64,000 nucleotides of DNA from Sphingosinicella microcystinivorans. Lineage in GTDB: Bacteria > Pseudomonadota > Alphaproteobacteria > Sphingomonadales > Sphingomonadaceae. The position numbers were made by a program, and so were the translations under genes. The stretch is from NCBI RefSeq assembly GCF_003634215.1, contig NZ_RBWX01000009.1:124001-188000 (forward strand), written 5' to 3'. The notes under the pieces were generated by a model. It was not told the DNA's origin. It did no database searches and was given only the letters and a program-made list of their open reading frames with translations. The stretch's first letter is position 1. Every line of letters begins with the position of its first letter. Shown here piece by piece: positions 45,000-59,521 of the stretch.

Positions 45000-45511
45000 T
45001 CGAGTTCCACATCGCGCATGTCGAGAATCTCGGCGGCGGTCCGCGCGTCGTGCCCCGCGCGCAGCATCGCGGCGAACTGTTTCTGCCGCACCGCCCGATC
45101 CGGCGCTTCCCGCGCGAACGGACCGAAGCGCTTGCGCCGCGCATAGGCCATGGCCGCGCCGCGCGTATCGACCGCGTCCGTGATCTCGGCGCGAAGGTCT
45201 TCGGCAAGGCCGGCCGCGCGCAGATCCTGCCCAATGCGCCGCGCCCCATAGCCGCGCCGCTCCAGCCCCCGCGCCCGCGCCTCTCCGAACGTGCGATCAT
45301 CGACGTAATGCAGCTCCGCGAAACGCTGAATGATCGCTTCCACATCTGCGGGGCGTTCCCCGGCCCAGCCGCGCTCGCGCAGCTTCCGGGCGAGATAGGC
45401 CGCAAGCTTGCCTTCAGAGGTCGCGTAGCGCTCCACATAGCGAAGCACGAGCGCACGAAGCGTCTCCTCATCGAGCGGTCGTGGCGGTTTTCGGCTTTTT
45501 TCGGTGCGCAC
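44990..45511 (-). CDS. recX: RecX family regulatory protein
   Basis: From GTG 45511 the protein has 173 residues with RecX repeats: LRALVLRYVERYATSEGKLAAYLARKLRERGW, ELHYVDDRTFGEARARGLERRGYGARRIGQDLRAAGL and KRFGPFAREAPDRAVRQKQFAAMLRAGHDARTAAEIL. RecX modulates RecA filaments. AGGA lies at a suitable distance before the GTG; a TTG or ATG upstream would add a region without family resemblance. No recA is adjacent. It is divergent from the acyl-AMP ligase gene. Confidence 0.85.
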   Translation of the reverse strand: MRTEKSRKPPRPLDEETLRALVLRYVERYATSEGKLAAYLARKLRERGWAGERPADVEAIIQRFAELHYVDDRTFGEARARGLERRGYGARRIGQDLRAAGLAEDLRAEITDAVDTRGAAMAYARRKRFGPFAREAPDRAVRQKQFAAMLRAGHDARTAAEILDMRDVELDYE

Positions 45512-45675
45512 GCCATGTTCCTGCCATAGTCGGACCCAATTTTGAACGTCACATTCCGGCAAAGGCTGACGCTGGCCTGTTTTGCAAGTGGCCAAGGAGT
45601 CGTGTATTTGGCGAGGTTTATGAGCGGCACGAAAAGCCGCCGCCGCGCCGAGAAGAGCTGAGGAGGTTCGGGGAC

Positions 45676-47466
45676 TTGCTGAATCGCACTTCGGATTCGA
45701 GCGCGCTAGCGCTGTCCGGCGCCGATGAAACGGCGTTGGCGCCTACGCCGACGCTCGACGATTTGCCGCGCCGTTTGGCGGATTTCAACACGCTTGGCGA
45801 AGCGCTGGACTATGCAGCGCACGGCAAGCGCGGCCTTAACTTTTTCGACGCTCGGGCACGGCTCGCGCGCGTGCTCACCTTTGCCGATCTCAAGGCGGAT
45901 GCGACCGCGAACGCCTATCGGCTGATCGCGGCGGGCATCAAGCCGGGCGACCGCGTGGCGCTGATCGCCGAGACGAGCGCTGATTTCGTGAGCCTGTTCT
46001 TCGGCGCCATATATGCCGGCGCCCTCCCCGTTCCCCTGCCGCTGCCGACATCGTTCGGCGGGCGCGAGGGCTATGTGGAGCAGATTCGCAGCCAGCTCAC
46101 GTCGTGCGATCCCGAGATCGCGCTTGCCCCATCGGGCCTCGCTGCGATCGCCGCGGAAGCCGCGCACGGCCTGCGCTGCCGCACCGCGCACGATTGGCTC
46201 GATTTCATGGCGCGCGAGGCAAAACCCGCCGCGCTGCCGTCCGCCCGCAAGAGCGACATCGCCTACCTTCAGTATTCGAGCGGTTCGACTCGCTTCCCGC
46301 ACGGCGTGGAAATCACGCATGAGGCGCTGCTCGCCAACCTGAACGGCCATGCCGTTGGCGTGAAGCTGCAGCGCGACGACCGCGTCATTTCGTGGCTGCC
46401 TTACTATCACGACATGGGCCTCGTCGGCTGCCTGATGGCGCCGATCGCGAACCAGGTTTCCGCCGACTACCTCGCCACCGAGGATTTCGCGCGGCGGCCG
46501 CTCTCGTGGCTTGCGCTCATTACGCGCAACGAAGGCCACAGCCTCTCTTATTCGCCGACCTTCGGCTACGACATCTGCGCGCGCCGCGTTTCGAGCCAGA
46601 CCGATGTCGCCGAGCGCTTCGACCTGTCGCGCTGGCGCGTTGCGGGCAACGGCGCCGACATGATCCGTCCGGACGTGATGAGCGCCTTCGTCGAAGCCTT
46701 CGCACCCGCGGGCTTCTCGGGCGGCGCTTTCCTGCCGAGCTACGGGCTTGCCGAAGCGACGCTCGCCGTCACCATCTCGCCGCCGGGCACCGGCATCGTC
46801 ACCGATCTCGTCGACGAACGCCTGCTTTCGGGCGAGCGCGAAGATAATGGCACCGGCACCGACACGGGCCGGATGCGCGCCATCGTGAACTGCGGCGTTG
46901 CGCTGCCGGGCATGGAAATCGAAATCCGCGACGAATCCGGCCGCCGCCTCGGCGACCGCCAGATCGGCAAGGTATTCGTGGCTGGCCCCAGCATCATGAC
47001 CGGCTATTTCCGCGACGAGATTTCGACCCGCGCCGCGCTTCAGGGCGAATGGCTCGATACGGGCGACATGGGCTACATGCTGGAGAGCGCGCTCTATATC
47101 GTCGGCCGCGCCAAAGACATGATCATCATCAACGGCAAGAACCACTGGCCGCAGGACATCGAGTGGGCGATCGAGCAGCTTCCGGGCTTCAAGGCAGGCG
47201 ACATCGCCGCCTTCTCGATCACCACGGAAGGCGGCGAAGAATCTCCCGCCGTGCTCGTGCAGTGCCGTACCAGCGACGCTGCCGAACGCGCCGACCTCCG
47301 CGAGACGATCAGGGCCAAGGTGCGCGCCATCACCGGCATGAACTGCATCGTCGAACTGGTCCCGCCGCGTACGCTGCCACGCACCAGCTCGGGCAAGCTC
47401 AGCCGCTCGAAGGCCCGCTCGCTCTACCTCTCCGGCCAGATCCAGCCGTTCGATATCGCGGCCTGA
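45676..47466 (+). CDS. Fatty acyl-AMP ligase / acyl-ACP synthetase of the sphingolipid locus
   Basis: A 596-residue adenylate-forming enzyme. The AMP-binding core reads YLQYSSGSTRFPHGVEITHEAL, then SWLPYYHDMGLVGCLMAPI, FLPSYGLAEATLAV and WLDTGDMGYMLESALYIVGRAKDMIIINGKNHWPQDIEW, the FAAL-like pattern. It probably activates a fatty acid and loads it on the ACP encoded at 48459. The start is TTG 45676, 9 nt after a perfect AGGAGG at 45661-45666; no ATG or GTG fits. It is the first of four co-directional genes ending in spt. In Caulobacter an acyl-ACP synthetase occupies the same place. Confidence 0.88.
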   Translation: MLNRTSDSSALALSGADETALAPTPTLDDLPRRLADFNTLGEALDYAAHGKRGLNFFDARARLARVLTFADLKADATANAYRLIAAGIKPGDRVALIAETSADFVSLFFGAIYAGALPVPLPLPTSFGGREGYVEQIRSQLTSCDPEIALAPSGLAAIAAEAAHGLRCRTAHDWLDFMAREAKPAALPSARKSDIAYLQYSSGSTRFPHGVEITHEALLANLNGHAVGVKLQRDDRVISWLPYYHDMGLVGCLMAPIANQVSADYLATEDFARRPLSWLALITRNEGHSLSYSPTFGYDICARRVSSQTDVAERFDLSRWRVAGNGADMIRPDVMSAFVEAFAPAGFSGGAFLPSYGLAEATLAVTISPPGTGIVTDLVDERLLSGEREDNGTGTDTGRMRAIVNCGVALPGMEIEIRDESGRRLGDRQIGKVFVAGPSIMTGYFRDEISTRAALQGEWLDTGDMGYMLESALYIVGRAKDMIIINGKNHWPQDIEWAIEQLPGFKAGDIAAFSITTEGGEESPAVLVQCRTSDAAERADLRETIRAKVRAITGMNCIVELVPPRTLPRTSSGKLSRSKARSLYLSGQIQPFDIAA

Positions 47467-47479
47467 CGCCGCTTCGCCC

Positions 47480-48388
47480 ATGACGATGCTCGCCATCACC
47501 GGCGGAACCGGCTTCGTCGGCACGACGCTGATCGATCTCGCGCTTGAGAAGGGCCACAAGGTACGCGGCCTCGCCCGCCGCGCGCAGCCCGCGCGCGCTG
47601 GTCTCGAATGGGTTGCGGGCGATCTCGCGAACGGCGAGGCGCTTGCCCGTCTTACCGAAAACGCGGATGCGGTGATCCATGTCGCGGGCGTCATCAACGC
47701 CCGCACGCCGCTGGAATTTGCCGCCGGAAACGTCGAAGGCACGCGCGCGATGCTGGAGGCGAGCCGCGACGTACCGCGCTTCGTGCAAGTCTCCTCGCTC
47801 GCGGCGCGCGAACCGGCGCTTTCGATTTACGGCAACACCAAGGCGGCTGCCGACGCGCTCGTCGAAACCGCGCGGCCGGACGCGGCGATCGTGCGTCCGC
47901 CCGCCGTCTATGGGCCGGGCGACCGAGAGACGGCAAACGTCTACAAGCTCGTTGCGCGCGGCTGGGCACTGCTGCCGGGCGCCGGGCGCTTTTCCATCGT
48001 CGAGGTTTCCGACCTCGCGCGCGCGCTGCTGGCACTTGCCGAACATCCTGCGCCAAGCGGCATTTTCGAAATCGACGACGGAACGCCGGGCGGACTCAGC
48101 CACCGCGACATGGCCGCGCACATCGCCGCGGCGCTCGGCAAGACGCCGACGTATGTTCCGCTTCCCCTCGCTGCGCTGAAGCTCGGCGCCGCGATCGACA
48201 CGCTGGGCGCGAAGCTCGCTGGGCGCCTGCCGGCGCTCAGCTTCGACCGTGCGCGCTATCTCGCGCATCCGGACTGGGTGGCGGACAGCACCGCCTTGCG
48301 CGCGCTCGGTGTCTGGGCGCCAGAGGTGCCTGCGGCCGAAGGCATCGCACGCACAGCCGAATGGTACAGAAACGCGGGCTGGATTTAG
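47480..48388 (+). CDS. NAD-dependent epimerase/dehydratase, CerR-like (oxidised ceramide reductase candidate)
   Basis: A 302-residue extended short-chain dehydrogenase. The N-terminal Rossmann motif is GGTGFVG (about residues 7-13), and the catalytic Tyr-x3-Lys lies in SIYGNTKAAADALV near residue 115. Between an acyl-ACP synthetase and ACP/spt genes it corresponds to CerR of Caulobacter, which reduces the 3-keto group of the oxidised ceramide intermediate. The 13-nt spacing to the ligase gene supports one transcript. The reductase role is inferred from context; the fold is certain. Confidence 0.82.
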   Translation: MTMLAITGGTGFVGTTLIDLALEKGHKVRGLARRAQPARAGLEWVAGDLANGEALARLTENADAVIHVAGVINARTPLEFAAGNVEGTRAMLEASRDVPRFVQVSSLAAREPALSIYGNTKAAADALVETARPDAAIVRPPAVYGPGDRETANVYKLVARGWALLPGAGRFSIVEVSDLARALLALAEHPAPSGIFEIDDGTPGGLSHRDMAAHIAAALGKTPTYVPLPLAALKLGAAIDTLGAKLAGRLPALSFDRARYLAHPDWVADSTALRALGVWAPEVPAAEGIARTAEWYRNAGWI

Positions 48389-48458: not shown

Positions 48459-48707
48459 ATGGCGCACACCCGCGACACCATCCTTCCGAAGCTGATGGAA
48501 CTGATCGAGCCCGTGAACCGCAAGGGCATCCCGCTCGAAGCGGACACGAGCTTCGCAATCGACCTCGAGCTGGACTCGCTGACCGTGATGGACCTCGTCG
48601 CCAACATCGAGGATGAATACGATATCATCCTGCCGATGAACCTGCTGCCCGAACTGGAAACGATCGGCCAGCTTGCCGACGCCGTCACCAAGATCGTGAA
48701 CGGCTGA
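48459..48707 (+). CDS. Acyl carrier protein dedicated to sphingolipid synthesis
   Basis: An 82-residue acidic protein with phosphopantetheine attachment at S40 in DLELDSLTVMDLV. It differs from housekeeping AcpP, which has a DSLDTVE motif, and lies 9 nt before spt. It probably delivers the acyl chain to serine palmitoyltransferase, as shown for the linked ACP in Caulobacter. The ATG at 48459 follows AGGA. Activation needs a 4'-phosphopantetheinyl transferase such as the acpS product. Confidence 0.9.
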   Translation: MAHTRDTILPKLMELIEPVNRKGIPLEADTSFAIDLELDSLTVMDLVANIEDEYDIILPMNLLPELETIGQLADAVTKIVNG

Positions 48708-48716
48708 GGGCGGACG

Positions 48717-49925
48717 ATGGGCGACCTTTTCGACAAATTCGATTCCGTAATCGCGGAGAAGGCGGCGCTGCTGGCGACGGGCGTGAACGACCCGTTCAAC
48801 CTCGTGATGGAGAAGGTCCACTCGCCGACCGAAGCCACGGTGAACGGGCGCGAGACAATCCTGGTCGGCACCTACAACTACATGGGCATGACCTTCGACC
48901 CCGACGTGATCGCGGCGGGCAAGGAAGCACTCGACGAGTACGGCGCGGGGACGACGGGCAGCCGGGTGCTGAACGGGACCTATCAGGGCCACCGCGAGGT
49001 CGAAGAGGCGCTGAAGGATTTCTACGGCACCAGCCATGCCATGGTGTTTTCGACCGGCTATCAGGCGAACCTCGGCCTGATGGCGACGATGGCGGCGCGC
49101 GGGGAGTACATCATCCTCGACGCCGACAGCCACGCCTCGATCTACGACGGCTGCGCGATGGGGAACGCCGACATCGTGCGCTTCCGCCATAACAGTGTCG
49201 AAGACCTCGACAAGCGTCTCGGGCGTCTGCCGGCGGAGGCAGGCAAGCTCGTCGTTCTCGAAGGCGTCTACTCGATGCTCGGCGATATCGCGCCGCTCAA
49301 GGAAATGGTCGCGGTCGCCAAGAAGCACGGCGCGATGATCGTCGTCGACGAAGCGCACGGGATGGGCTTCTTCGGCCCGAACGGCCGCGGTGTCTATGAA
49401 GCCGCAGGCGTCGAGGCGGATGTCGATTTCGTCGTCGGCACCTTCTCGAAATCGGTGGGCACGGTCGGCGGGTTCGTCGTCTCCAACCACCCGAAGTTCG
49501 AGGTTCTGCGCCTCGTCTGCCGCCCTTACGTGTTCACCGCCTCGCTTCCGCCGAGCGTCGTCGCCACGGCCGCGACCTCTATCCGCAAGCTGAAGCACGC
49601 ACACAACAAGCGCCAGCATCTGTGGGAAAACAGCCGCAAGCTGCATTCCGGCCTCAAGGCCAAAGGCTTCAAGATCGCGACCGAGACCGCGGAAAGCGCG
49701 ATCATCGCGGTGCTGATGCCGGGCCAGGAAGCCTGCGCACGCATGTGGAGTGCGCTCATCGAGCTTGGCGTCTATGTCAACATGGCACGCCCGCCCGCGA
49801 CGCCCGCCGGCATGTTCCTGCTGCGCTGCTCGCTTTGCGCCGAACACCGCGCCGAACAGGTGGACATCATCATCGACCGCTTCGTGCAGGCGGCGGAAAT
49901 TGCCGGAATCCCGCTCGACGCCTGA
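48717..49925 (+). CDS. spt: Serine palmitoyltransferase
   Basis: A 402-residue PLP-dependent alpha-oxoamine synthase that condenses L-serine with an acyl thioester to 3-ketosphinganine, the first committed step of sphingolipid synthesis. Residues stacking on or holding PLP are visible: H139 in DSHAS, D211/H214 in VVDEAHGMG, and Lys245 in GTFSKSVG. GTYNYMGM, GTTGSRVLNGTYQGHREVE and STGYQANLG match soluble bacterial SPT. Close homologues are AONS and KBL, but the linked ACP, CerR-like and ceramide synthase-like genes make SPT by far the best call. It converges with the nucleotidyltransferase-fold gene with 1 nt between. Confidence 0.93.
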   Translation: MGDLFDKFDSVIAEKAALLATGVNDPFNLVMEKVHSPTEATVNGRETILVGTYNYMGMTFDPDVIAAGKEALDEYGAGTTGSRVLNGTYQGHREVEEALKDFYGTSHAMVFSTGYQANLGLMATMAARGEYIILDADSHASIYDGCAMGNADIVRFRHNSVEDLDKRLGRLPAEAGKLVVLEGVYSMLGDIAPLKEMVAVAKKHGAMIVVDEAHGMGFFGPNGRGVYEAAGVEADVDFVVGTFSKSVGTVGGFVVSNHPKFEVLRLVCRPYVFTASLPPSVVATAATSIRKLKHAHNKRQHLWENSRKLHSGLKAKGFKIATETAESAIIAVLMPGQEACARMWSALIELGVYVNMARPPATPAGMFLLRCSLCAEHRAEQVDIIIDRFVQAAEIAGIPLDA

Positions 49926-49926
49926 G

Positions 49927-50844
49927 CTAGCGCACTGCGCCCTTGCGGATCAGCCGGGGCAGCAGCACCAGCCCGGCAAGGATCGGGAAGCGGCGGTGCC
50001 ACGGCTTCACGACGATGTCCGCGCCCGAATGCCGGTTCACCTTCCACGCGATATAATCGACGCCGCCCTTGAAGGTGAAACTGGCTTTCGCGAGCCTTAG
50101 CACCGAGAGCAGCTTGCCGCGTCGGCGCAGCCTCGCCCAGACACGTTCACCCACCGCGCGGTCGGCAGCCGCGCGGAAGTGGACGATGCCACCGCGCACC
50201 TCCGCCGCAAGATCGCTGTCCGCAATCGCAGGCGCGGTGAAGGCGGCATAGCGCGTAGGATCGGTTTCGAAGATCGACTGGCCGCGTCCAGCACGCTCCG
50301 AGCGAAGTTCGGCAGCGTAGGTGAGTGCAAAGGCGCCGGTCCACAGCGCCTCGACACTGAGATCGTCATCCAGCATCGGCCGCGCGGTCTTGAGCAGTGT
50401 CGGCGCGGCAGCCGCGACAGCACGGATGACGCGCGCGCGCGCCGCATCGCCGCGCACCCAGACAAGCCGCGAAGGCTGCGCGAAACGGGCCCACACCGAG
50501 ACATTGTCGCAATCCGGCGAGCAGGCGTGCGCGAAATCTTCAACAGTCATCACCGCGAACTTGGCGCGCAGGCCTTCGTGTTCAGCGTAAAAGACGTTGG
50601 GCGGGATCAGGCGGTTTGCCGTCGCCATCCAGCGGCGCGTGTAGGCGCGGTCGTAGGAATCGACGAGCAGGTAGAAATCGAGCAGCGAATCGCCGAGGTC
50701 TTCGCTCCTGAGGCACGAGCCGTAGAACAGCACGGCCTGCGCGGCGCCCCCGCATTTCTCGGCGATCGCTTTCGCGAAATCGGAGACTTCGGGCGCGGCG
50801 GGCGTTTCCAGCTCGGCCGCAACGAGCGGCACGAGTGCCGTCAT
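49927..50844 (-). CDS. Nucleotidyltransferase-fold protein of the sphingolipid locus
   Basis: A 305-residue protein with an atypical nucleotidyltransferase signature near residues 37-57: VLFYGSCLRSEDLGDSLLDFYLLVD (a GSxxR loop followed by an acidic D-F-Y in place of D-x-D). This layout recalls Tam41-type CDP-diacylglycerol synthases. Its ATGA overlap with the ceramide-kinase-like gene suggests a shared substrate. A nucleotidyltransferase (CpgD) and the cpgABC genes are needed for anionic ceramide phosphoglycerate in Caulobacter. A cytidylyl transfer to ceramide phosphate is my inference; the C-terminal half has no recognised domain. Confidence 0.6.
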   Translation of the reverse strand: MTALVPLVAAELETPAAPEVSDFAKAIAEKCGGAAQAVLFYGSCLRSEDLGDSLLDFYLLVDSYDRAYTRRWMATANRLIPPNVFYAEHEGLRAKFAVMTVEDFAHACSPDCDNVSVWARFAQPSRLVWVRGDAARARVIRAVAAAAPTLLKTARPMLDDDLSVEALWTGAFALTYAAELRSERAGRGQSIFETDPTRYAAFTAPAIADSDLAAEVRGGIVHFRAAADRAVGERVWARLRRRGKLLSVLRLAKASFTFKGGVDYIAWKVNRHSGADIVVKPWHRRFPILAGLVLLPRLIRKGAVR

Positions 50845-51812
50845 GCTGCGAGGCTGAGGAACGACACCGGCGCGGTGGGCGTCAGCACGATCGAACGCCC
50901 CTCGCCTGCTTCGTAAAGCTCACCATCAAGGATGACGCTGGCGCGCTTGCCCTCGATACGGATCTCGTCGCCGCGCCGCAGATGCAGCCCGTTGAAGCGT
51001 GCGCTGCCGAGACGGCCGGCGAGCGCGGAGACCAGCGCCTTCAACACCGTTGTCCGGCGTTGCTCGATCGCCATCAGCTTCAGGGGACCGGCCCGGTCGC
51101 TGAACGGCGTGGCGAAATTGAGCAGCAGGCGCTCAAGCGTTGTCACCATCAGCACGAGGAAACTGCCTTCGACCGGCACGCCATCTCGCTGCAGCGATAC
51201 GCGCATCGGGCTCGGTCGCACCGGATTCCAGCGCGCTCCCGCGCCCACGAGCACACTCGCGATCACAACGAACGTTGCGATCAGGTGGCTGACCCAGTTC
51301 GGCAGGCCCAGGGGATAAATCTTGTTGCGGCAGAACAGGATCGCCTCGGCAAGGCCGGCCCCTCCAAGGAACATGCCGAAAACGGGGCGCGCCGCGATGC
51401 CGTCGCTGAGCGCGATAAGCTGGCGCGCGACGACGTGCGGATCGACGCCTGTTTCGACGATCTTCAGGATGTTCGACAACGCCTCCACCGGGCTACTACC
51501 GGCGCCGAGATCGAGCGCGATGAGATTGGTCTTGCCATTCGGCAGCACCGCGAGCGGCGGCACTGCGCCCTTGAAGTGGTGGCCGTTGTAGATTTCCGTG
51601 AGCGCCGCCTGCACGGTGCCGTCGCCGCCGTTGATGACGAGTACGGCCGGCTTCACGCGCGCAATCATGGCGAGCGCATCCGGCACTTCGGAGATATCCC
51701 CCACCTCGTAGTGGAAGATGTTCGGATGCTGCGCCACGAACTCCCGAATGCGCGGCAATACCGACTTGTTACCGGTCGAGCGCGGATTGGAGAGGAGCGC
51801 GACGCAGGCCAT
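50841..51812 (-). CDS. Diacylglycerol/ceramide kinase-like lipid kinase
   Basis: A 323-residue protein of the DAGK/sphingosine kinase family. The nucleotide-binding NPRSTGNK near residue 8 and GGDGTVQAALTEI near residues 59-71 are diagnostic; PLAVLPNGKTNLIALDLG corresponds to the conserved PxGTxN loop, with K replacing the usual T. Caulobacter CpgB, encoded beside spt, is a member of this family with ceramide kinase activity, so the likely substrate is ceramide. It overlaps the nucleotidyltransferase-fold gene and follows the DUF2141 gene by 2 nt. Confidence 0.82.
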   Translation of the reverse strand: MACVALLSNPRSTGNKSVLPRIREFVAQHPNIFHYEVGDISEVPDALAMIARVKPAVLVINGGDGTVQAALTEIYNGHHFKGAVPPLAVLPNGKTNLIALDLGAGSSPVEALSNILKIVETGVDPHVVARQLIALSDGIAARPVFGMFLGGAGLAEAILFCRNKIYPLGLPNWVSHLIATFVVIASVLVGAGARWNPVRPSPMRVSLQRDGVPVEGSFLVLMVTTLERLLLNFATPFSDRAGPLKLMAIEQRRTTVLKALVSALAGRLGSARFNGLHLRRGDEIRIEGKRASVILDGELYEAGEGRSIVLTPTAPVSFLSLAA

Positions 51813-51814
51813 GG

Positions 51815-52363
51815 TCAGTCGCGCCTTGCCACGAGAGGTTTCACGGAAAGCAGGCCCTGCCGATAGTTCAGGATGACATCCACGACGGTGACGCCGTCAC
51901 GCGCGACGAACATCGCATCTTCATAATCGGGCTTCGAAAGGCCGAGCTTCGGATTGCCCGAAAAGCCGACGCCATCCTTCGAGATGGAGAGCTTGCCGTT
52001 CGTGTCGCGATCGTGAAGCACCGCCATCGAGAATTCACCATGGCGCGGCAGCGCCATGCAGACATTCATGTCGCCCGACCCCGTCATCGGCAGTTCGATG
52101 CGCTTCAGCTTCTTGCCCTTTTCAAGGAACTCGTCGGGGTTGTCGCTGTAGAGCTGAACCCGGAGATTACCGCCGCGATCCTTGAAGCCGTACACGCGCA
52201 CCAGCGCAGCGGGACCCCGCGCGCCCGGCGCGCAGGCGGATGCTTCAGGGCCGATAATCGTCTGGGCGGCAGACGGCGCTGAAAATGCGCCAAGAGCCAC
52301 CGTTGTCGCAACGAGCGAACGGACAAACCCCCGGAAAACCGCATTTGTTTGCTTCAGCACCAT
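51815..52363 (-). CDS. DUF2141 domain-containing exported protein
   Basis: A 182-residue protein with a signal peptide (about residues 1-34, cleavage near SAAQ-T) and the DUF2141 domain: LVRVYGFKDRGGNLRVQLYSDNPDEFLEKGK, CMALPRHGEFSMAVLHDRDTNGKLSISKDGVGFSGNPKLGLSKPDYEDAMF. The family is periplasmic and of unknown function. It is the first gene of the minus-strand head-group cluster and diverges from lptF, so it might carry or bind a lipid intermediate; that is conjecture. Confidence 0.8.
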   Translation of the reverse strand: MVLKQTNAVFRGFVRSLVATTVALGAFSAPSAAQTIIGPEASACAPGARGPAALVRVYGFKDRGGNLRVQLYSDNPDEFLEKGKKLKRIELPMTGSGDMNVCMALPRHGEFSMAVLHDRDTNGKLSISKDGVGFSGNPKLGLSKPDYEDAMFVARDGVTVVDVILNYRQGLLSVKPLVARRD

Positions 52364-52482
52364 GAACCTCCTCGATCGCCCCCCTTTTTTCGAATCACCA
52401 AATTATTGATGCATCCCTCTCTCACCGTGGTATCGGGTCCGCTTGCGGCCAAAATTTGACCAAGGATCGACAAAACCAAGAG

Positions 52483-53706
52483 ATGCTGGCCCAATTCGAC
52501 AGGTACATGGCGCGGCTGATCGCGGTGCCGCTGTTCGCGACACTGATGATCGCGGCCATGCTGCTATTGCTGGAGAAGATGCTGAAATTGTTCGACTTCG
52601 TGGTAAACGAAGGTGGGCCGGCATCGGTCGTCTGGCGTATGCTCGGCAACCTCATTCCGCAGTATCTCGGCCTTGGAATCCCGGTCGGCCTTCTTCTGGG
52701 CATATTGCTCGCTTTCCGGAATCTGGCGCTTTCGAGCGAACTCGACGCGATGCGCGCCGTGGGAATCAGCTACATGCGGATGCTGCGCGTGCCTTATATG
52801 TACGCGCTGCTCCTCGGCCTTTTGACGCTGCTCATCGTTGGGTTCATCCAGCCGATCAGCCGTTATGCCTATGAGGGGCTGGAGTTCGAGCTGCGCTCGG
52901 GCGCGCTCGGCGCCACGATCGATGTGGGCGAGTTCGTGCAGGTGGCACGCAACACGACGATCCGTGTCGAGGAAAGCCGCGACCACGGCCGCGACCTGCG
53001 CGGCATCTTCGTCAGCGGCCAGAGCGTCGACGGCAAGACGGTTTCCGTCACCGCCGCGCGGGGCACGTTCCTTGCGACCGACGACCCGGATGTCATCCTC
53101 CTGCGGCTCACCGACGGCACGCTCGTGCACGACGCGCCCGGCTACAAGCAGCCGCGTGTGCTGACCTTCCGTATGCACGACCTGCCGATCGACTTGCCGC
53201 AGATCGAGCTGTTCCGCATTCGCGGCGCCGAAGCCGACGACAACGAGCTGACGCTTCCCGAGCTCTACCGCGTCGGCTATCTCGGCCAGGGCACCACCAC
53301 CGAGGCAAACCGGGAAGCGGTGCGCGCAAACCTCCACCGGCGACTGGTGCAGGTGTTCGCGGTCATGGTGATCCCACTGCTCGCGGTGGCGCTCGCGGTA
53401 CCGCCGAAGCGATCGACCTCCGCGGTCGGCGTGTTCGCGGCGCTCACCATCCTTATCGTCTACAACGAGATTTCAGAGGCCGCAGAGCGCTCCGGCGCCG
53501 CGGGGAAAGCCGATATCGTGCTCAGCCAGTGGGGCAGTTTCATTGCCTTCAGCCTGCTCTGCGCGTGGTTCTTCCACGTACTCGCGAACGTGCCGGGCGG
53601 TCAGCCCATCGCGATGATCGAGCGCGGCGCGGGCATCGTCACCAAGTGGATCGTCAGCCTGTGGCGCCTGATCCGCCGCCGTTTCGCGCGGGCGAAAACC
53701 GCATGA
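52483..53706 (+). CDS. lptF: LptF-type permease (YjgP/YjgQ family)
   Basis: A 407-residue protein with the LptF/LptG layout: an N-terminal trio of membrane helices (IAVPLFATLMIAAMLLLLEKM, YLGLGIPVGLLLGILLAFRNLALSSELDAMRAVGISYMRML), a periplasmic beta-jellyroll of about 170 residues, and C-terminal helices (VFAVMVIPLLAVALAVPP). With LptB2 it extracts lipid from the inner membrane. I use ATG 52483, though TTG 52456 is possible and neither has a strong ribosome binding site. It overlaps lptG (ATGA). The location in a sphingolipid locus raises the question of its cargo. Confidence 0.88.
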   Translation: MLAQFDRYMARLIAVPLFATLMIAAMLLLLEKMLKLFDFVVNEGGPASVVWRMLGNLIPQYLGLGIPVGLLLGILLAFRNLALSSELDAMRAVGISYMRMLRVPYMYALLLGLLTLLIVGFIQPISRYAYEGLEFELRSGALGATIDVGEFVQVARNTTIRVEESRDHGRDLRGIFVSGQSVDGKTVSVTAARGTFLATDDPDVILLRLTDGTLVHDAPGYKQPRVLTFRMHDLPIDLPQIELFRIRGAEADDNELTLPELYRVGYLGQGTTTEANREAVRANLHRRLVQVFAVMVIPLLAVALAVPPKRSTSAVGVFAALTILIVYNEISEAAERSGAAGKADIVLSQWGSFIAFSLLCAWFFHVLANVPGGQPIAMIERGAGIVTKWIVSLWRLIRRRFARAKTA

Positions 53707-54806
53707 GCAGCGCGCTTTCGCTCTGGCCCTCGCCGACCATCGCGACCTATACGGCGCGCTTGTTCATGATGCGCACGCTCGCGTTCGCGATCGGCCTCGT
53801 CGCCATATTGCAGACGCTCGACCTGCTGACGGAATCGAACAAGATCCTGGCCATCGACGGCAACGGCAACGCCGAGTTGCTGCGCTATGTGCAACTTCGC
53901 GTTCCGCAGCTGATTTCGCAATTCCTGCCCTTCTCCGTGCTGCTCGGCGCGCTCGTGACGATGGCGACGCTGAGCCAGAACAGCGAAGTGACGATCTTCC
54001 GCGCCGCCGGGCTTTCCGCGCACCAGATCCTCTACCCGATGATGGCGGCAGCGCTGGGGCTTTCGCTGTTTCACTTCACCTTCAACGAGTTGGTTCTGGT
54101 ACGGACGAATGCCGAACTCATCGCGTGGGAAAAGGCTGAATACCGGCGCGATGCGGAAATCGACACGAATCCGCTCACCGACGTGTGGGTGCGCGAGGGG
54201 CGCGAGATCATCCATGCCGACAGCGTGACCGGAAGCGGCAAGGAAACCGTTCTGCACGATGTGCGCGTGGACCGCCGCGACGGCAGCCGCCTGCGTCAGA
54301 TCATCAACGCGAAAAGCGGCCGCCCGGACGGCAACGCCTGGCTGTTGAACGACGTCCGCATCTTCACGGTACGCACCGGCGCGCTCTCCCGCGCACCGGA
54401 AATCCGGCTGGGCACGGGCATAGAGCCCGACCGCTTCACGATGCGCGCACCCGATCCGGACCGGACCAACATCGCCGATCTCTGGAAGCAGACACGCCTT
54501 CTGGAATCGGTGGGACGCGGCACGGATTCGCTGCGCGTTGCGCTCTATCACAAAGTGTCGCTGCCGCTTTCGGCCGTGCTGATGCCGTTGCTCGGCGCCG
54601 TCACGGCGTTCGGTCTCGCCCGTTCGGGCAGGCTCTTCGCCCGCGCGGTCGTCGGAATGGCACTCGGCTTTGCCTATTTCGTCGCCGACAATTTCATGGT
54701 GGCAATGGGCGAGTTCGGAACAGTGCCACCATGGGCCGCGGGCTGGGCGCCGTTCCTGCTGTTCTTCCTCGTCGGGGAGGCGGTTCTCTTCAGGACCGAA
54801 GAATGA
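53703..54806 (+). CDS. lptG: LptG-type permease (YjgP/YjgQ family)
   Basis: A 367-residue partner of the preceding protein. N-terminal helices (FAIGLVAILQTLDLLTESNKIL, LISQFLPFSVLLGALVTMATLSQNSEVTIFRAAGLSAHQIL) are followed by a jellyroll domain and three C-terminal helices (VSLPLSAVLMPLLGAVTAFGLARSGRLFARAVVGMALGFAYFVADNFMV). It is coupled both to lptF and to the flippase gene (ATGA each). lptB, lptC and lptA are not in the window. Confidence 0.88.
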   Translation: MSSALSLWPSPTIATYTARLFMMRTLAFAIGLVAILQTLDLLTESNKILAIDGNGNAELLRYVQLRVPQLISQFLPFSVLLGALVTMATLSQNSEVTIFRAAGLSAHQILYPMMAAALGLSLFHFTFNELVLVRTNAELIAWEKAEYRRDAEIDTNPLTDVWVREGREIIHADSVTGSGKETVLHDVRVDRRDGSRLRQIINAKSGRPDGNAWLLNDVRIFTVRTGALSRAPEIRLGTGIEPDRFTMRAPDPDRTNIADLWKQTRLLESVGRGTDSLRVALYHKVSLPLSAVLMPLLGAVTAFGLARSGRLFARAVVGMALGFAYFVADNFMVAMGEFGTVPPWAAGWAPFLLFFLVGEAVLFRTEE

Positions 54807-56344
54807 CCGACGCCGACCGTTCCGGCGGAACAGGCATCAACAAGAAAACAGTTGTGAGAAGCGCAGGCGTGGTGGCGATGGCCCGGCTCGGCGCATTGAT
54901 CGAAGCGGTTGCGCAGCCGGCCTTCGTCTGGATGTTCGGCCTCGCCACATACGGCATCTACATGGCGCTCTGGGCGGCGGTGAACATCGTGTCCAACGTC
55001 GCCGATCTCGCGATGACCAGCGCCATGCAGCGCACCATTCCGCAGGCGGCAACCGACGAGCGCGCGCACAGCGCACTGAAGACCGCGCTCATTCTCGGCA
55101 TGGTGCCGAGCGTCCTGATCGCGATCGGTGTCAGCGTATTCGCAGCCCCGGTCGCCGCGCAGTTCAATGCCGCGCCAAAGGACAAGGACAGTCTGGTGCT
55201 TGCCGTCGCCGTGTTCGCGTGGGCACTGCCGCTTTGGACCTTCGTGGAGCTGGCGACATCCGCCGCGCGGGCGCGCAAGGCCTTCGGCCCCGAAGTCCGC
55301 CTTCGAATTTTCTGGGAACAGGTGGTCCGGCTTGCGATGGCCGGCGCTGCCTGGCTCGCCGGGTGGATGACAATGGGGCTTATCGTTGCGCACCTGGCCT
55401 CCCTTACGATCACTGCTCTGCTCGGCTGGAGGCTGCTCAGCCGCTATTACGACACACGATTGCTCGTCCGGGCCCCCTTCGACGGGGAGGTGGTGAGAGA
55501 CCTGCTTGGCACGGGGTTTGGAATCCTTCCCGCCAATATCGCAGCGCGCGCCTTTTCCGACGTGCCCCCGCTGCTCCTCAACTGGCTGCTTCCAGGCGCC
55601 GCTGGGGCCAGCGCCTCAGGGCTTTTCGGAATCGCGCGCAAGATCGCTTCAATTCCACTCATCGTGCGGCACAGCCTGCATTATGTCATCCAGCCCCTCG
55701 CCGCCGAGCAGGCCATGCACGACAAGGGCCGCATCAACCCCATCTATGGGTTCGCATCGCGGCTTTCGATGATCCTGCTCTTGCCGATGGCGCTGCTCCT
55801 GGCGCTGCTCGCAGGCCCGATTCTTCTGCTGTTCCCGCCGGAAGCAGCCGCCGCCGCGCCGCTCATCATCGTGCTGACGCTGGCGCGCGGCATCAATTCC
55901 ATCGCAGGACCCGCAAACGGCATCCTCCAGATGCTGCAACCGCGAATCCTCCCGACTTTGAACGCCGTTCTCGGCAGCGCCGTATGGCTGCTCGTCACAT
56001 GGTTTTTGTGGGAAAGCGATGCGGCGATGGCCATGGCGTGGGGCGTGGCCTGTGGCGTGTTCATCATGGAATGGCTGGCGCTTGCCGAACTCTGGTACAC
56101 GGATCGTATCCATCCGTTTGCAGCACCTTTTTTCAGGGGAGCAGCAATCATCGGAGGTTCGTCGCTGCTGACCTGGGCTCTGCTTGGCCATCATCAGCCA
56201 TTGCCCTTGTTGCTCGACATTCTCCTGCCTATCTTCGCGGCGTTCGTTCTCATTTGGCTTGGGCTGCGGTTCGTGCTTACGGAGCGCGAACGGCAAAGCC
56301 TTGGACGGATCGGAAGAACGCTGGGGCTATCCAGCCCTCAATAG
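54803..56344 (+). CDS. MOP-superfamily flippase (Wzx/MurJ-like)
   Basis: A 513-residue polytopic protein with 12-14 predicted helices and the polysaccharide-biosynthesis/flippase pattern: RSAGVVAMARLGALIEAVAQPAFVWMFGLATYGIYMALWA at the start, then AFSDVPPLLLNWLLPGAAGASASGLFGIARKIASIPLIV in the middle. Such proteins flip lipid-linked saccharides or related lipids. Being translationally coupled to lptG and 8 nt before a glycerophosphotransferase-like gene, it may flip a sphingolipid or glycolipid made by this locus. Confidence 0.75.
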   Translation: MTDADRSGGTGINKKTVVRSAGVVAMARLGALIEAVAQPAFVWMFGLATYGIYMALWAAVNIVSNVADLAMTSAMQRTIPQAATDERAHSALKTALILGMVPSVLIAIGVSVFAAPVAAQFNAAPKDKDSLVLAVAVFAWALPLWTFVELATSAARARKAFGPEVRLRIFWEQVVRLAMAGAAWLAGWMTMGLIVAHLASLTITALLGWRLLSRYYDTRLLVRAPFDGEVVRDLLGTGFGILPANIAARAFSDVPPLLLNWLLPGAAGASASGLFGIARKIASIPLIVRHSLHYVIQPLAAEQAMHDKGRINPIYGFASRLSMILLLPMALLLALLAGPILLLFPPEAAAAAPLIIVLTLARGINSIAGPANGILQMLQPRILPTLNAVLGSAVWLLVTWFLWESDAAMAMAWGVACGVFIMEWLALAELWYTDRIHPFAAPFFRGAAIIGGSSLLTWALLGHHQPLPLLLDILLPIFAAFVLIWLGLRFVLTERERQSLGRIGRTLGLSSPQ

Positions 56345-56352
56345 GACGTATC

Positions 56353-57519
56353 ATGGCCCCAAAGCGTGTCGCTTTCCTGTTCGTCGGCGGCGCGCACCAA
56401 GTGCTACACAGCGCCTCCGTCGCGGCGGAGCTTGGAAGCGATCCGCGCTTTGAAGTCACCTGCTTCGTTACCCAGGACGACGAGCGCCGCATGCTTGAAG
56501 AGGTCGCGCGTGCATGGCCCGATTCGCGGCTCTCGATTACCGACTTTCCTGCGCCGCGCTGGTCCATCCTGATGGGCAGGATCATCCCCGGGCTGCGCGC
56601 AATGAAACTGCCTCGCCTTCTGGCGAACAGGAGACAGCTTTCCGGTTTCGATGCGGTCGTTCTCACCGAGCGGACATCGACGATCCTGAAGAAGCTGCCG
56701 GGATGCCCCGTACTTATCCACATTCCGCATGGTGCAGGGGATCGCGCACGCGGTTTCGAACCCCGGCTGCGGCTGTTCGATTTCATCATCGTATCGGGCG
56801 AGAAGGACGCCCGCCGCATGACGGACGAAGGCCTCGTCGCGAAATCGCGTATCGCGGTGTCCGGCTCGACGAAACTCGATGCGCTCGAACGTCTCGGCGC
56901 GGGCCGTCCAAAGTTGTTCGAAAACGACAGGCCCACCGTGCTGTACAATCCTCATTTCGATGGGAGGCTCGGCTCCTGGCCGCGCTGGGGGGTGCAGGTT
57001 ATCGACGCTTTCGCGGCGCAATCCGACTTCAACCTGATTGTCGCGCCGCATATTCGGCTGTTCGAGGGCGCATCAGCGGCGGAGCGCGCGGCGTTCGAGG
57101 CGCGTGCCATTCCCGGCAGGATCATCGTCGACGCAGGGTCGGCGCGCTCGTGTGACATGACCTATACCAACGCCGCCGACATCTATCTTGGCGATGTCAG
57201 CAGCCAGGTTTACGAGTTCCTTGCCCGCCCCCGTCCCTGCGTGTTCCTCGACAGCACGGGCGCGGACTGGAAGGACGATCCGAACTACGCCTTCTGGCAT
57301 CTGGGCGATGTGGTGACGGACCTGTCCGACGTTCTCCCAACCATCACGCGCGCGGGCGCGGCGCACGCCGCCTACATCGCGCGACAGAACGCCGCGGTGT
57401 GTGCTGCCGTTGGCGGCGATTGGCGCGGCGCATCGGCGCGTGCTGCGGCGGCGATCGCGGGGTTTCTCACTGGCGGTTCCGCGCCTCATACGCTGGCATC
57501 GACCACAGTGCGGTCCTAA
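56353..57519 (+). CDS. CDP-glycerol glycerophosphotransferase-like protein
   Basis: A 388-residue GT-B-fold-like protein. The C-terminal segment YTNAADIYLGDVSSQVYEFLARPRPCVFLD matches the DxSS...EF motif of CDP-glycerol:glycerophosphotransferases (TagB/TagF family), and TVLYNPHFDGRLGSWPRWG contains a conserved HF/W region. VLIHIPHGAGDRARG carries the family's HG motif. Classical members add glycerol phosphate to wall teichoic acid; in this Gram-negative sphingolipid locus an anionic head group on ceramide or glycolipid is a reasonable alternative. A glycosyltransferase role is also possible. Confidence 0.68.
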   Translation: MAPKRVAFLFVGGAHQVLHSASVAAELGSDPRFEVTCFVTQDDERRMLEEVARAWPDSRLSITDFPAPRWSILMGRIIPGLRAMKLPRLLANRRQLSGFDAVVLTERTSTILKKLPGCPVLIHIPHGAGDRARGFEPRLRLFDFIIVSGEKDARRMTDEGLVAKSRIAVSGSTKLDALERLGAGRPKLFENDRPTVLYNPHFDGRLGSWPRWGVQVIDAFAAQSDFNLIVAPHIRLFEGASAAERAAFEARAIPGRIIVDAGSARSCDMTYTNAADIYLGDVSSQVYEFLARPRPCVFLDSTGADWKDDPNYAFWHLGDVVTDLSDVLPTITRAGAAHAAYIARQNAAVCAAVGGDWRGASARAAAAIAGFLTGGSAPHTLASTTVRS

Positions 57520-57593: not shown

Positions 57594-58367
57594 ATGCAGC
57601 TTCTCAAGGGCTATCGGCTCGGCATGTGGAGCAAGAGCCACAATCTGTCGAAGATGACGTTCCGCGAGCTCGTCGTCGCGTATTTCCAGTATTACGCCAT
57701 TCAGGCGTATCTGCTGCTGACGGTGGCATCGCTCTACGTTGCGTGGGCCTATCCGACGACACTGCTGCGCGGCGCCGCATCGGCCGCGATCGCCATCGCG
57801 GCCTATCCGCTCGCGTGGTTCCTGCTGCATCGTTACGTGCTTCACAGCCGCTGGATGTTCAAATCGCCGCTGACGGCGCGAACGTGGAAGCGCATCCACT
57901 ACGATCACCACCAGGACCCCAACCACCTCGAAGTGCTGTTCGGCGCGCTCTACACGACGCTGCCGACCATCGCGATCGTCACGATCCCGGTCGGGTATGC
58001 GATCGGCGGCATCGGCGGTGCGGCGTGGGGCTTCGCAGCCGGCCTGCTCACCACGTGCTTCTACGAATTCTGCCACTGCATCCAGCATCTCTCCTACAAG
58101 CCCCGCTCGCCGTGGCTGGTGGAAATGAAGACGCGTCACATGGAACATCATTTCCACGACGAGGACGGCAACTTCGGCATCACCAGCTTCGTGTGGGACA
58201 AGCTGTTCGGCACCTATTATCAGCGCGGCGAACGCCCGGAGAAGAGCGAGACGGTATTCAACCTCGGCTACACGACCGAGGCCGCCGCGAAATGGCCGTG
58301 GGTCGCGAACATGTCCGGCGGCGTCGCCGAGGGCCATCCGCGCCAGCGCATGAAAAAAGCGGCCTGA
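57594..58367 (+). CDS. Fatty acid hydroxylase / sterol desaturase superfamily protein
   Basis: A 257-residue membrane di-iron enzyme. Histidine clusters are in the expected order: LLHRYVLHS (HX4H), RIHYDHHQDPNH (HX2HH), FCHCIQHLSY (HX3H) and TRHMEHHFHDE (HX2HH), between predicted helix pairs (about residues 30-50, 55-75, 120-160). The family hydroxylates or desaturates lipids with O2. Within a ceramide locus it is a candidate for the 2-hydroxylation of the ceramide acyl chain or C4-hydroxylation of the base, both reported in sphingomonad sphingolipids. I chose ATG 57594 after AAAGG; ATG 57522 is the alternative. It precedes the ceramide synthase-like gene by 8 nt. Confidence 0.85.
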   Translation: MQLLKGYRLGMWSKSHNLSKMTFRELVVAYFQYYAIQAYLLLTVASLYVAWAYPTTLLRGAASAAIAIAAYPLAWFLLHRYVLHSRWMFKSPLTARTWKRIHYDHHQDPNHLEVLFGALYTTLPTIAIVTIPVGYAIGGIGGAAWGFAAGLLTTCFYEFCHCIQHLSYKPRSPWLVEMKTRHMEHHFHDEDGNFGITSFVWDKLFGTYYQRGERPEKSETVFNLGYTTEAAAKWPWVANMSGGVAEGHPRQRMKKAA

Positions 58368-58375
58368 TTCCGGCG

Positions 58376-59521
58376 ATGGGGGGCGAAATCGAAATCCGGT
58401 CGGTCGCGAGCGCGGCCGACCGCAAAACGTTCATTGATCTGCCGTGGACACTCTACGCGAACGACCCGAACTGGGTTCCGCCGCTGAAATCAGAGGTCGC
58501 AGGCCTCATCGGCGGCGCAAAGAGCAATCCGTGGTTCGAGCACGCCGAAGCCGCCTTCTGGCTCGCGTACAAGGACGGTAAGCCTGTCGGTCGCATTTCC
58601 GCGCAGGTCGACCAGCTCGTTCTGAAGCACATGGGCGCGGGCACGGGACAATTCGGCATGTTCGAGTGCATCGACGATGCCGATGTCGCGAACGCGCTTC
58701 TGGACACGGCGGAAGCTTGGCTGAAGGCAAAAGGCATGACGCGGTCGCTCGGACCGATCAGCCTGTCGATCTGGGACGAACCCGGCCTACTCGTCGATGG
58801 TTTCGATCTGCCGCCGACCGTGATGATGGGCCATCACCTGCCCCATTATGCGCCGCTTATCGAGGCGCGCGGCTACGTTGGCGTGAAAGACCTTCACACC
58901 TACGAGCTTCCCATCGAAGCGGGCTTCCCGCCCGCCGTGGGCCGCATCGTCGCGGCGGCCGAGAAATCGAGCCGTATCCGCATGAGGAACGTCGACAAGT
59001 CGCGCTTCAACGAGGAAGCGGCGCTTATCCTCGATATCCTGAACGACGCGTGGTCAGACAATTGGGGCTTCGTCCCGCTCACGCCGAGCGAAGTCGCCTA
59101 CGTGGGCAAGAAGCTGAAGCCCATCGTGTTCGAGGATCTGATCCGCATCTGCGAGGTCGACGGCGAGCCGGTGGCCTTCATGATCACCCTGCCCGACGTG
59201 AACGAGCTGACCGCCGATCTCGATGGCAAATTGCTGCCGTTCGGCTGGGCGAAGCTGCTTTGGCGGCTGCGTGCACCGAAGGTCCGCCGCATGCGCGTGC
59301 CGCTGATGGGCGTACGCAAGACCCTGCAGGGCAGCCGTCTCGCCAGTTTCATGGCCTTCCTGATGATCGAGCATATCCGCCGCGCCGCCGTTACCCACTA
59401 TGACGCGAAGCAGGGCGAGATCGGCTGGATTCTGGACGACAACGGTCCGATGAAATCGATCGCCGACGTGATCCAATCGAAGATCACGAAGACCTACCGC
59501 GTCTTCGAAAAGACGCTTTAG
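58376..59521 (+). CDS. GNAT-like acyltransferase resembling bacterial ceramide synthase
   Basis: A 381-residue protein starting with EIRSVASAADRKTFIDLPWTLYANDPNWVPPL, then AYKDGKPVGRISAQVDQLV and FGMFECIDDADVANALLDTAEAWLKAKGMTRSLGPISLSIWDEPGLLVDGF. It resembles the large GNAT-fold proteins to which bCerS of Caulobacter belongs; bCerS N-acylates 3-ketosphinganine or a related base. Its location closing the locus opened by spt strengthens the assignment. It converges with xthA with a 4-nt overlap. The exact acyl donor is not visible from sequence. Confidence 0.75.
   Translation: MGGEIEIRSVASAADRKTFIDLPWTLYANDPNWVPPLKSEVAGLIGGAKSNPWFEHAEAAFWLAYKDGKPVGRISAQVDQLVLKHMGAGTGQFGMFECIDDADVANALLDTAEAWLKAKGMTRSLGPISLSIWDEPGLLVDGFDLPPTVMMGHHLPHYAPLIEARGYVGVKDLHTYELPIEAGFPPAVGRIVAAAEKSSRIRMRNVDKSRFNEEAALILDILNDAWSDNWGFVPLTPSEVAYVGKKLKPIVFEDLIRICEVDGEPVAFMITLPDVNELTADLDGKLLPFGWAKLLWRLRAPKVRRMRVPLMGVRKTLQGSRLASFMAFLMIEHIRRAAVTHYDAKQGEIGWILDDNGPMKSIADVIQSKITKTYRVFEKTL

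Follow-up and report, generated by a model that had tools for sequence, protein, structure and literature searches.

The window analysed here, a stretch of 64,000 nucleotides from Sphingosinicella microcystinivorans, carries a kinase-nucleotidyltransferase gene pair that, judging from gene order, gene set and published descriptions, we infer to be the cpgB-cpgC pair of the ceramide-(di)phosphoglycerate (CPG/CPG2) pathway known from Caulobacter. The closest fold of the nucleotidyltransferase is Tam41 bound to CTP-Mg and Tam41 is also its top profile match in the PDB, and the best reading of the protein is therefore a lipid-phosphate cytidylyltransferase that probably makes CDP-ceramide. Taken as a whole, a CPG pathway pair with a Tam41-type CpgC leading to CDP-ceramide, CpgA and CpgD encoded elsewhere in the genome, an added TagF-like transferase and export of the product is a proposal that we regard as probable on balance. 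The pathway itself is a known one, found here in a new host and a new arrangement; the analysis adds structural support for a published step and a new, TagF-like component.

The cpgB-cpgC-like pair and its gene cluster

The first-pass annotation had described a ceramide-kinase-like enzyme translationally coupled to a protein with a Tam41-like loop. Both reading frames are present (Table 1), with the DAGK_cat domain and the GGDG ATP motif in the 323-aa kinase and, in the 305-aa protein, the motifs YGSCLR at residues 41-46 and LLDFY at 54-58; the ATGA overlap between the two frames makes translational coupling plausible. The CxxxCxxC motif of eukaryotic ceramide kinases is missing from the translated kinase, and its absence is a trait that sets the bacterial ceramide kinase CpgB apart from the eukaryotic enzymes (PMC10331486). 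The 323-aa protein is thus predicted to be a CpgB-type bacterial ceramide kinase, its ceramide phosphorylation being carried over from the Caulobacter enzyme, a proven ceramide kinase (PMC10331486). At most related loci the kinase gene has cpgC and spt as neighbours, and as the arrangement is kept across several alphaproteobacterial families, the pattern at the locus is not due to chance.

Table 1. Features of the sphingolipid gene cluster, in positions of the window
Feature	Position	Strand	Basis
Fatty acyl-AMP/CoA ligase (aasR-like), true start within ORF uncertain	45481..47466	+	ORF; synteny
NAD-dependent reductase (cerR-like)	47480..48388	+	Gene call; synteny
Specialised acyl carrier protein (acpR-like)	48459..48707	+	Gene call; synteny with PMC11324152
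Serine palmitoyltransferase (spt), convergent with cpgC	48717..49925	+	Aminotransferase class I/II; conserved acp-spt order
cpgC-like Tam41-fold nucleotidyltransferase, 305 aa	49927..50844	-	Model, fold match, PDB profile match
ATGA overlap, cpgB stop / cpgC start	50841..50844	-	Sequence read (gcATGAcgg)
cpgB-like ceramide kinase, 323 aa	50841..51812	-	DAGK_cat (PF00781) E 7e-13; GGDG at residue 62
DUF2141 protein gene, before cpgB	51815..52363	-	PF09912 E 7e-20
lptF2-like permease	52456..53706	+	PF03739 E 2e-56
lptG2-like permease	53706..54806	+	PF03739 E 7e-73
Polysaccharide-type flippase	54803..56344	+	PF01943 E 8e-8; flippase adjoins TagF-like genes in other genomes
TagB/F-like GT-B transferase, 388 aa	56353..57519	+	PF04464 in relatives; model; TagF fold match
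Fatty acid hydroxylase-superfamily protein	57594..58367	+	PF04116 E 2e-20
Bacterial ceramide synthase (bcerS-like, GNAT-type)	58376..59521	+	Conserved position; Acetyltransf_1 weak, E 0.002, under curated cut-off

The minus-strand pair converges with a ceramide operon of acyl ligase, reductase, ACP and SPT genes, in which the name spt derives from synteny with Caulobacter CC_1162. As in Caulobacter crescentus (CC_1152-CC_1168; CpgA-CpgD), the order is acyl ligase-reductase-ACP-spt, convergent cpgC-cpgB, then lptF2-lptG2 and the ceramide synthase gene, and homologues of CpgA, CpgD and CC_1153 are encoded in the genome. Unlike in Caulobacter, however, these last three lie on another contig (C1), outside the window cluster, which has the DUF2141 gene and the TagF-like gene instead. 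The first-pass annotation, while naming CpgD, had missed the identity of the CPG locus, where CpgC was already known. In the nearest named contigs, which are Sphingosinicella MAGs, the cluster genes are mostly 84-99% identical, with the flippase at 49% in one. A single scan across named genomes gave matches in Dongia, Kordiimonas, Sphingobium, Sphingosinicella and Nitrospirales, and none in Caulobacter.

A DUF2141 gene precedes cpgB in 41 of the 80 named cpgC loci, many of them from Sphingomonadales and Kordiimonadales, and this is the place that CpgA takes in Rhodospirillales; its product is possibly an unrecognised part of the pathway or of transport. Several Sphingobium loci (L126, L139, L144-L146, L154, L162, L164) have cpgC near spt and no cpgB-like kinase within 10 kb, so that in these the kinase must be encoded elsewhere or be of a different kind.

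Tam41-like fold and predicted reaction of CpgC

For the 305-aa family, an alignment of 51 sequences (that of the window and 50 relatives) and an AlphaFold model (pLDDT 95.3, pTM 0.91) were obtained, and the model was ranked against known folds by Foldseek and VIA-align. The best match was 7ecd, a Firmicutes Tam41 with CTP-Mg (Z 19.1, 230 residues aligned, rmsd 3.1 A), with mitochondrial Tam41 at Z 16; the first fold other than Tam41, that of aminoglycoside nucleotidyltransferases, scored Z 7.2. When the family profile was searched against the sequences of the whole PDB, Tam41 again came first (E 0.004 and 0.0042), and the sole other match was an unrelated chain (E 0.13).

The likeness to Tam41, the CDP-diacylglycerol synthase of mitochondria and Firmicutes (6ig2, 6ig4, 7ecd), extends to a nucleotidyltransferase domain followed by a second domain, the GS loop, a single conserved Asp, and K and RF.xP motifs in the profile alignment. 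Y41, G42, S43 and D56 are invariant in the 51 sequences, and D56 is the only invariant acidic residue of the nucleotidyltransferase part, before residue 179, which fits the trait that Tam41 retains one of the three usual nucleotidyltransferase acids (PMC11646218). The differences are an identity of 12-17%, a C-terminal region of its own (residues 259-305, the last ~45, with invariant Y264, K268, H272, G274 and P287) that falls outside the Tam41 alignment, and surrounding genes that belong to ceramide and not to diacylglycerol. The Pfam Tam41 model is matched by one of the 51 members (E 1e-6), whereas the window copy has no match to Tam41_Mmp37 over the cut-off; because the model misses this copy, we describe the protein as probably working like Tam41, rather than as being a Tam41. 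A PF09139 search of the host genome gave nothing, and since the control, Caulobacter vibrioides, was also without a match, the search speaks neither for nor against the domain hint published for CC_1161.

That hint, of a CDP-diacylglycerol-synthase domain in CC_1161, had led the authors of the 2024 study to consider that the protein might make NDP-activated ceramide, and the same authors regarded the joining of glycerate to a phosphomonoester without activation as unfavourable (PMC11324152). The CDP-ceramide idea of the first-pass annotation, which is still a prediction, rediscovers this suggestion, while our literature search found no paper using the term CDP-ceramide. With a kinase coupled to a Tam41-like cytidylyltransferase, the formation of CDP-ceramide from ceramide phosphate and CTP would be the most economical reading of the pair.

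Which lipid the protein uses is not readable from the fold. It is improbable, in our judgement, that the 305-aa protein is no more than a bacterial Tam41 making CDP-diacylglycerol with ceramide genes as incidental neighbours: a Firmicutes Tam41 does make CDP-diacylglycerol (PMC11646218) and Caulobacter CpgB also phosphorylates diacylglycerol in vitro (PMC10331486), however, the linkage of cpgC to spt or cpgB is kept across families and the kinase is coupled to the 305-aa gene by ATGA. Genetics in Caulobacter points the same way, as CPG formation requires CC_1161/CpgC, and CC_1161 mutants are viable, make neither CPG nor CPG2 and build up some ceramide (PMC11324152).

On the favoured reading, in which CpgC is a proposed CTP:ceramide-1-phosphate cytidylyltransferase, CpgB would first convert ceramide to ceramide-1-phosphate, as shown for the Caulobacter enzyme. 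CpgC would then bind CTP-Mg and move CMP onto ceramide-1-phosphate, yielding CDP-ceramide and pyrophosphate, a step suggested by the fold, the conserved residues and the genetics. The release of CMP would drive the attachment of glycerate to CDP-ceramide by a further enzyme, giving CPG. CpgD, which produces CDP-glycerate in Caulobacter (PMC12275187) and has a like gene elsewhere in this genome, would supply the donor, from which CpgA, a CDP-alcohol phosphotransferase also encoded elsewhere, would add a second phosphoglycerate to give CPG2. The TagF-like transferase of the cluster may carry out an additional, optional head-group transfer, and the flippase and LptF2/G2 would export the finished lipid.

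Core genes and optional modules

In Caulobacter, CPG2 formation requires CpgA, CC_1153 and CpgD (PMC11324152). The CpgA-like CDP-alcohol phosphotransferase of the present genome (369 aa, PF01066; L084:9095-10201, contig C1) matches cluster CpgAs at 42-57% over its full length. A CC_1153-like nucleotidyltransferase gene lies on the same contig, and directly after it stands a gene for a LicC-type nucleotidyltransferase, the CpgD candidate, which is assigned by this position and by co-occurrence with CpgA; a sequence search of the PDB did not find CpgD. In Rhodospirillales-type loci, the CpgA, CC_1153-like and CpgD-like genes occur together with cpgB-cpgC. Another cluster on C1 (L047, 1542-1546 kb), with a myo-inositol-1-phosphate synthase, an NTP transferase and two CDP-alcohol phosphotransferases, had been considered as the CpgA/CpgD locus and was ruled out by the synthase; it is a separate inositol-phosphate module, the true candidates being in L084 and L083.

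A HIT-domain gene (L084:8664-9095, at about 1150.7 kb of C1) abuts CpgA, and such genes turn up again in the CPG clusters of further families, at 12 of 80 named loci; the product could process a nucleotide by-product. Two CDP-alcohol phosphotransferases are found in some clusters, namely those of Dongia, Reyranella, Vineibacter and Nitrospirales, where such a pair would suit one transfer each. On three Nitrospirales MAG contigs (L116, L142, L156) the order is CpgA-cpgB-cpgC, followed by another CpgA-like gene, and the pathway therefore extends beyond Proteobacteria.

A phylogenetic profile of five genes was drawn over 147 genomes of the host's order, which are related by ancestry. CpgC is present in 94 of these, and the CC_1153-like nucleotidyltransferase in 95: every genome with CpgC, plus a further one of 64% completeness. 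CpgA occurs in 20 genomes and CpgD in 21, and every one of the 20 CpgA genomes has both CpgD and CpgC. The TagF-like gene is found in 40 genomes, a count that leaves out one weak match (E 8e-4); all 40 carriers have CpgC, while none of the 53 genomes lacking CpgC has it. CpgA is present in 13 of these 40 and absent from 27, and both CpgA and the TagF-like gene are missing from 47 of the 94 genomes with CpgC. The profile thus divides the pathway into a core, CpgC with the CC_1153-like nucleotidyltransferase, and two optional modules, CpgA with CpgD and the TagF-like gene; this distribution over 147 genomes is new here. Since the genomes share ancestry and the profile covers these five genes and not SPT, the nesting of the gene sets may stem from the overall capacity to make sphingolipids.

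The constant company of CpgC and the CC_1153-like nucleotidyltransferase also bears on the chemistry, as the two enzymes might together carry out a single step that uses nucleotide-activated glycerate. CpgC would then join glycerate to ceramide-1-phosphate by some other chemistry and without free CDP-ceramide, the nucleotide being perhaps on the side of glycerate; an earlier scheme had CpgC simply turning ceramide-1-phosphate into CPG, and published schemes leave the mechanism open. We hold this to be unlikely, though less so than a role in diacylglycerol metabolism, since CpgC has the fold and the conserved residues of a CTP:lipid-phosphate cytidylyltransferase, the unactivated joining is unfavourable as noted above, and the Caulobacter CC_1153 mutant still makes CPG (PMC11324152). 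The CDP-ceramide mechanism has its weak point in the 47 CpgC genomes without CpgA or the TagF-like gene, where an enzyme to consume CDP-ceramide is missing.

The TagF-like gene and head-group chemistry

The TagB/F-like enzyme, which the first-pass annotation had placed about 5 kb away, was recovered 4.5 kb from the pair; its frame ends at 57519 and its likely start is the ATG at 56353, not the TTG at 54670 of the mechanical ORF. PF04464 gave no match for the protein at E 0.1, nor any in its own genome at E 0.01, and matched 30 of 36 relatives (best E 5e-7). The model (pLDDT 92) has a GT-B fold, in which TagF (Z 23.6) is tied with UDP-GlcNAc 2-epimerases (Z 24.7), so that the fold alone does not separate the two; the family profile, searched against the PDB, matched only the TagF-like polymerase Cps3D (E about 0.001-0.01). 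With the TagF/TarL teichoic acid polymerases and Cps3D the protein therefore shares the GT-B fold, PF04464 in most relatives and the profile match, but unlike TagF/TarL it comes from a Gram-negative organism, has a single GT-B domain of 388 aa and is linked to sphingolipid genes.

In seven genomes of two families (G035, G056, G080 and G097; G020, G026 and G031) the TagF-like gene is separated from CpgA, which has the same orientation, by 20-85 bases, and elsewhere it adjoins a CC_1153-like nucleotidyltransferase, a HAD phosphatase or a flippase, which it directly follows in the window. The HAD-family phosphatase gene is seen just upstream of it at L182:836-1504, with equivalents in six further loci (L168, L170, L179, L183, L184, L186). 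From its neighbours and distribution, the TagF-like gene looks like a second head-group module that varies between lineages. Our literature search found no paper linking it to the CPG pathway, of which it is a previously unlinked component.

The first-pass annotation had offered this enzyme as an alternative to CDP-ceramide, attaching glycerol phosphate from CDP-glycerol. The opposition is probably mistaken, as the TagF-like gene and the CpgB/CpgC pair seem to belong to a single system. A search for the CDP-glycerol synthase proposed there returned none over the TagD (TIGR01518) cut-off in the genome (best 17.6 bits against 165), while CpgA-like and CpgD-like genes, and with them CDP-glycerate, are represented. 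That the enzyme makes glycerophospho-ceramide from CDP-glycerol is accordingly very improbable, the least likely of the readings weighed here: its TagF fold and family and its confinement to CpgC genomes agree with the idea, and CDP-glycerol could yet come from a cytidylyltransferase outside the TIGR01518 family, however, the gene has CC_1153-like or CpgD-like nucleotidyltransferases for neighbours. The likelier donor would be CDP-glycerate or something else made by these nucleotidyltransferases.

A wider reading, which we offer tentatively and think doubtful, is that CDP-ceramide is a dedicated lipid-nucleotide intermediate made by a Tam41-type enzyme in bacteria of the order, and that in many of these the TagF-like enzyme extends ceramide phosphate by further units of phosphoglycerate or a related polyol phosphate; if true, this would be teichoic-acid-like chemistry on an outer-membrane sphingolipid. 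The suggestion of the first-pass annotation that an anionic sphingolipid pathway could replace the charges of LPS is consistent with its Caulobacter counterpart, which stands in for LPS charge (PMC12275187, PMC11324152); CPG lipids allow Caulobacter to live without LPS and are also its polymyxin target. A Tam41 fold for CpgC narrows the unsolved conversion of ceramide-1-phosphate to CPG down to one direct assay, while the division into core and modules points to the head groups to be sought in sphingomonads.
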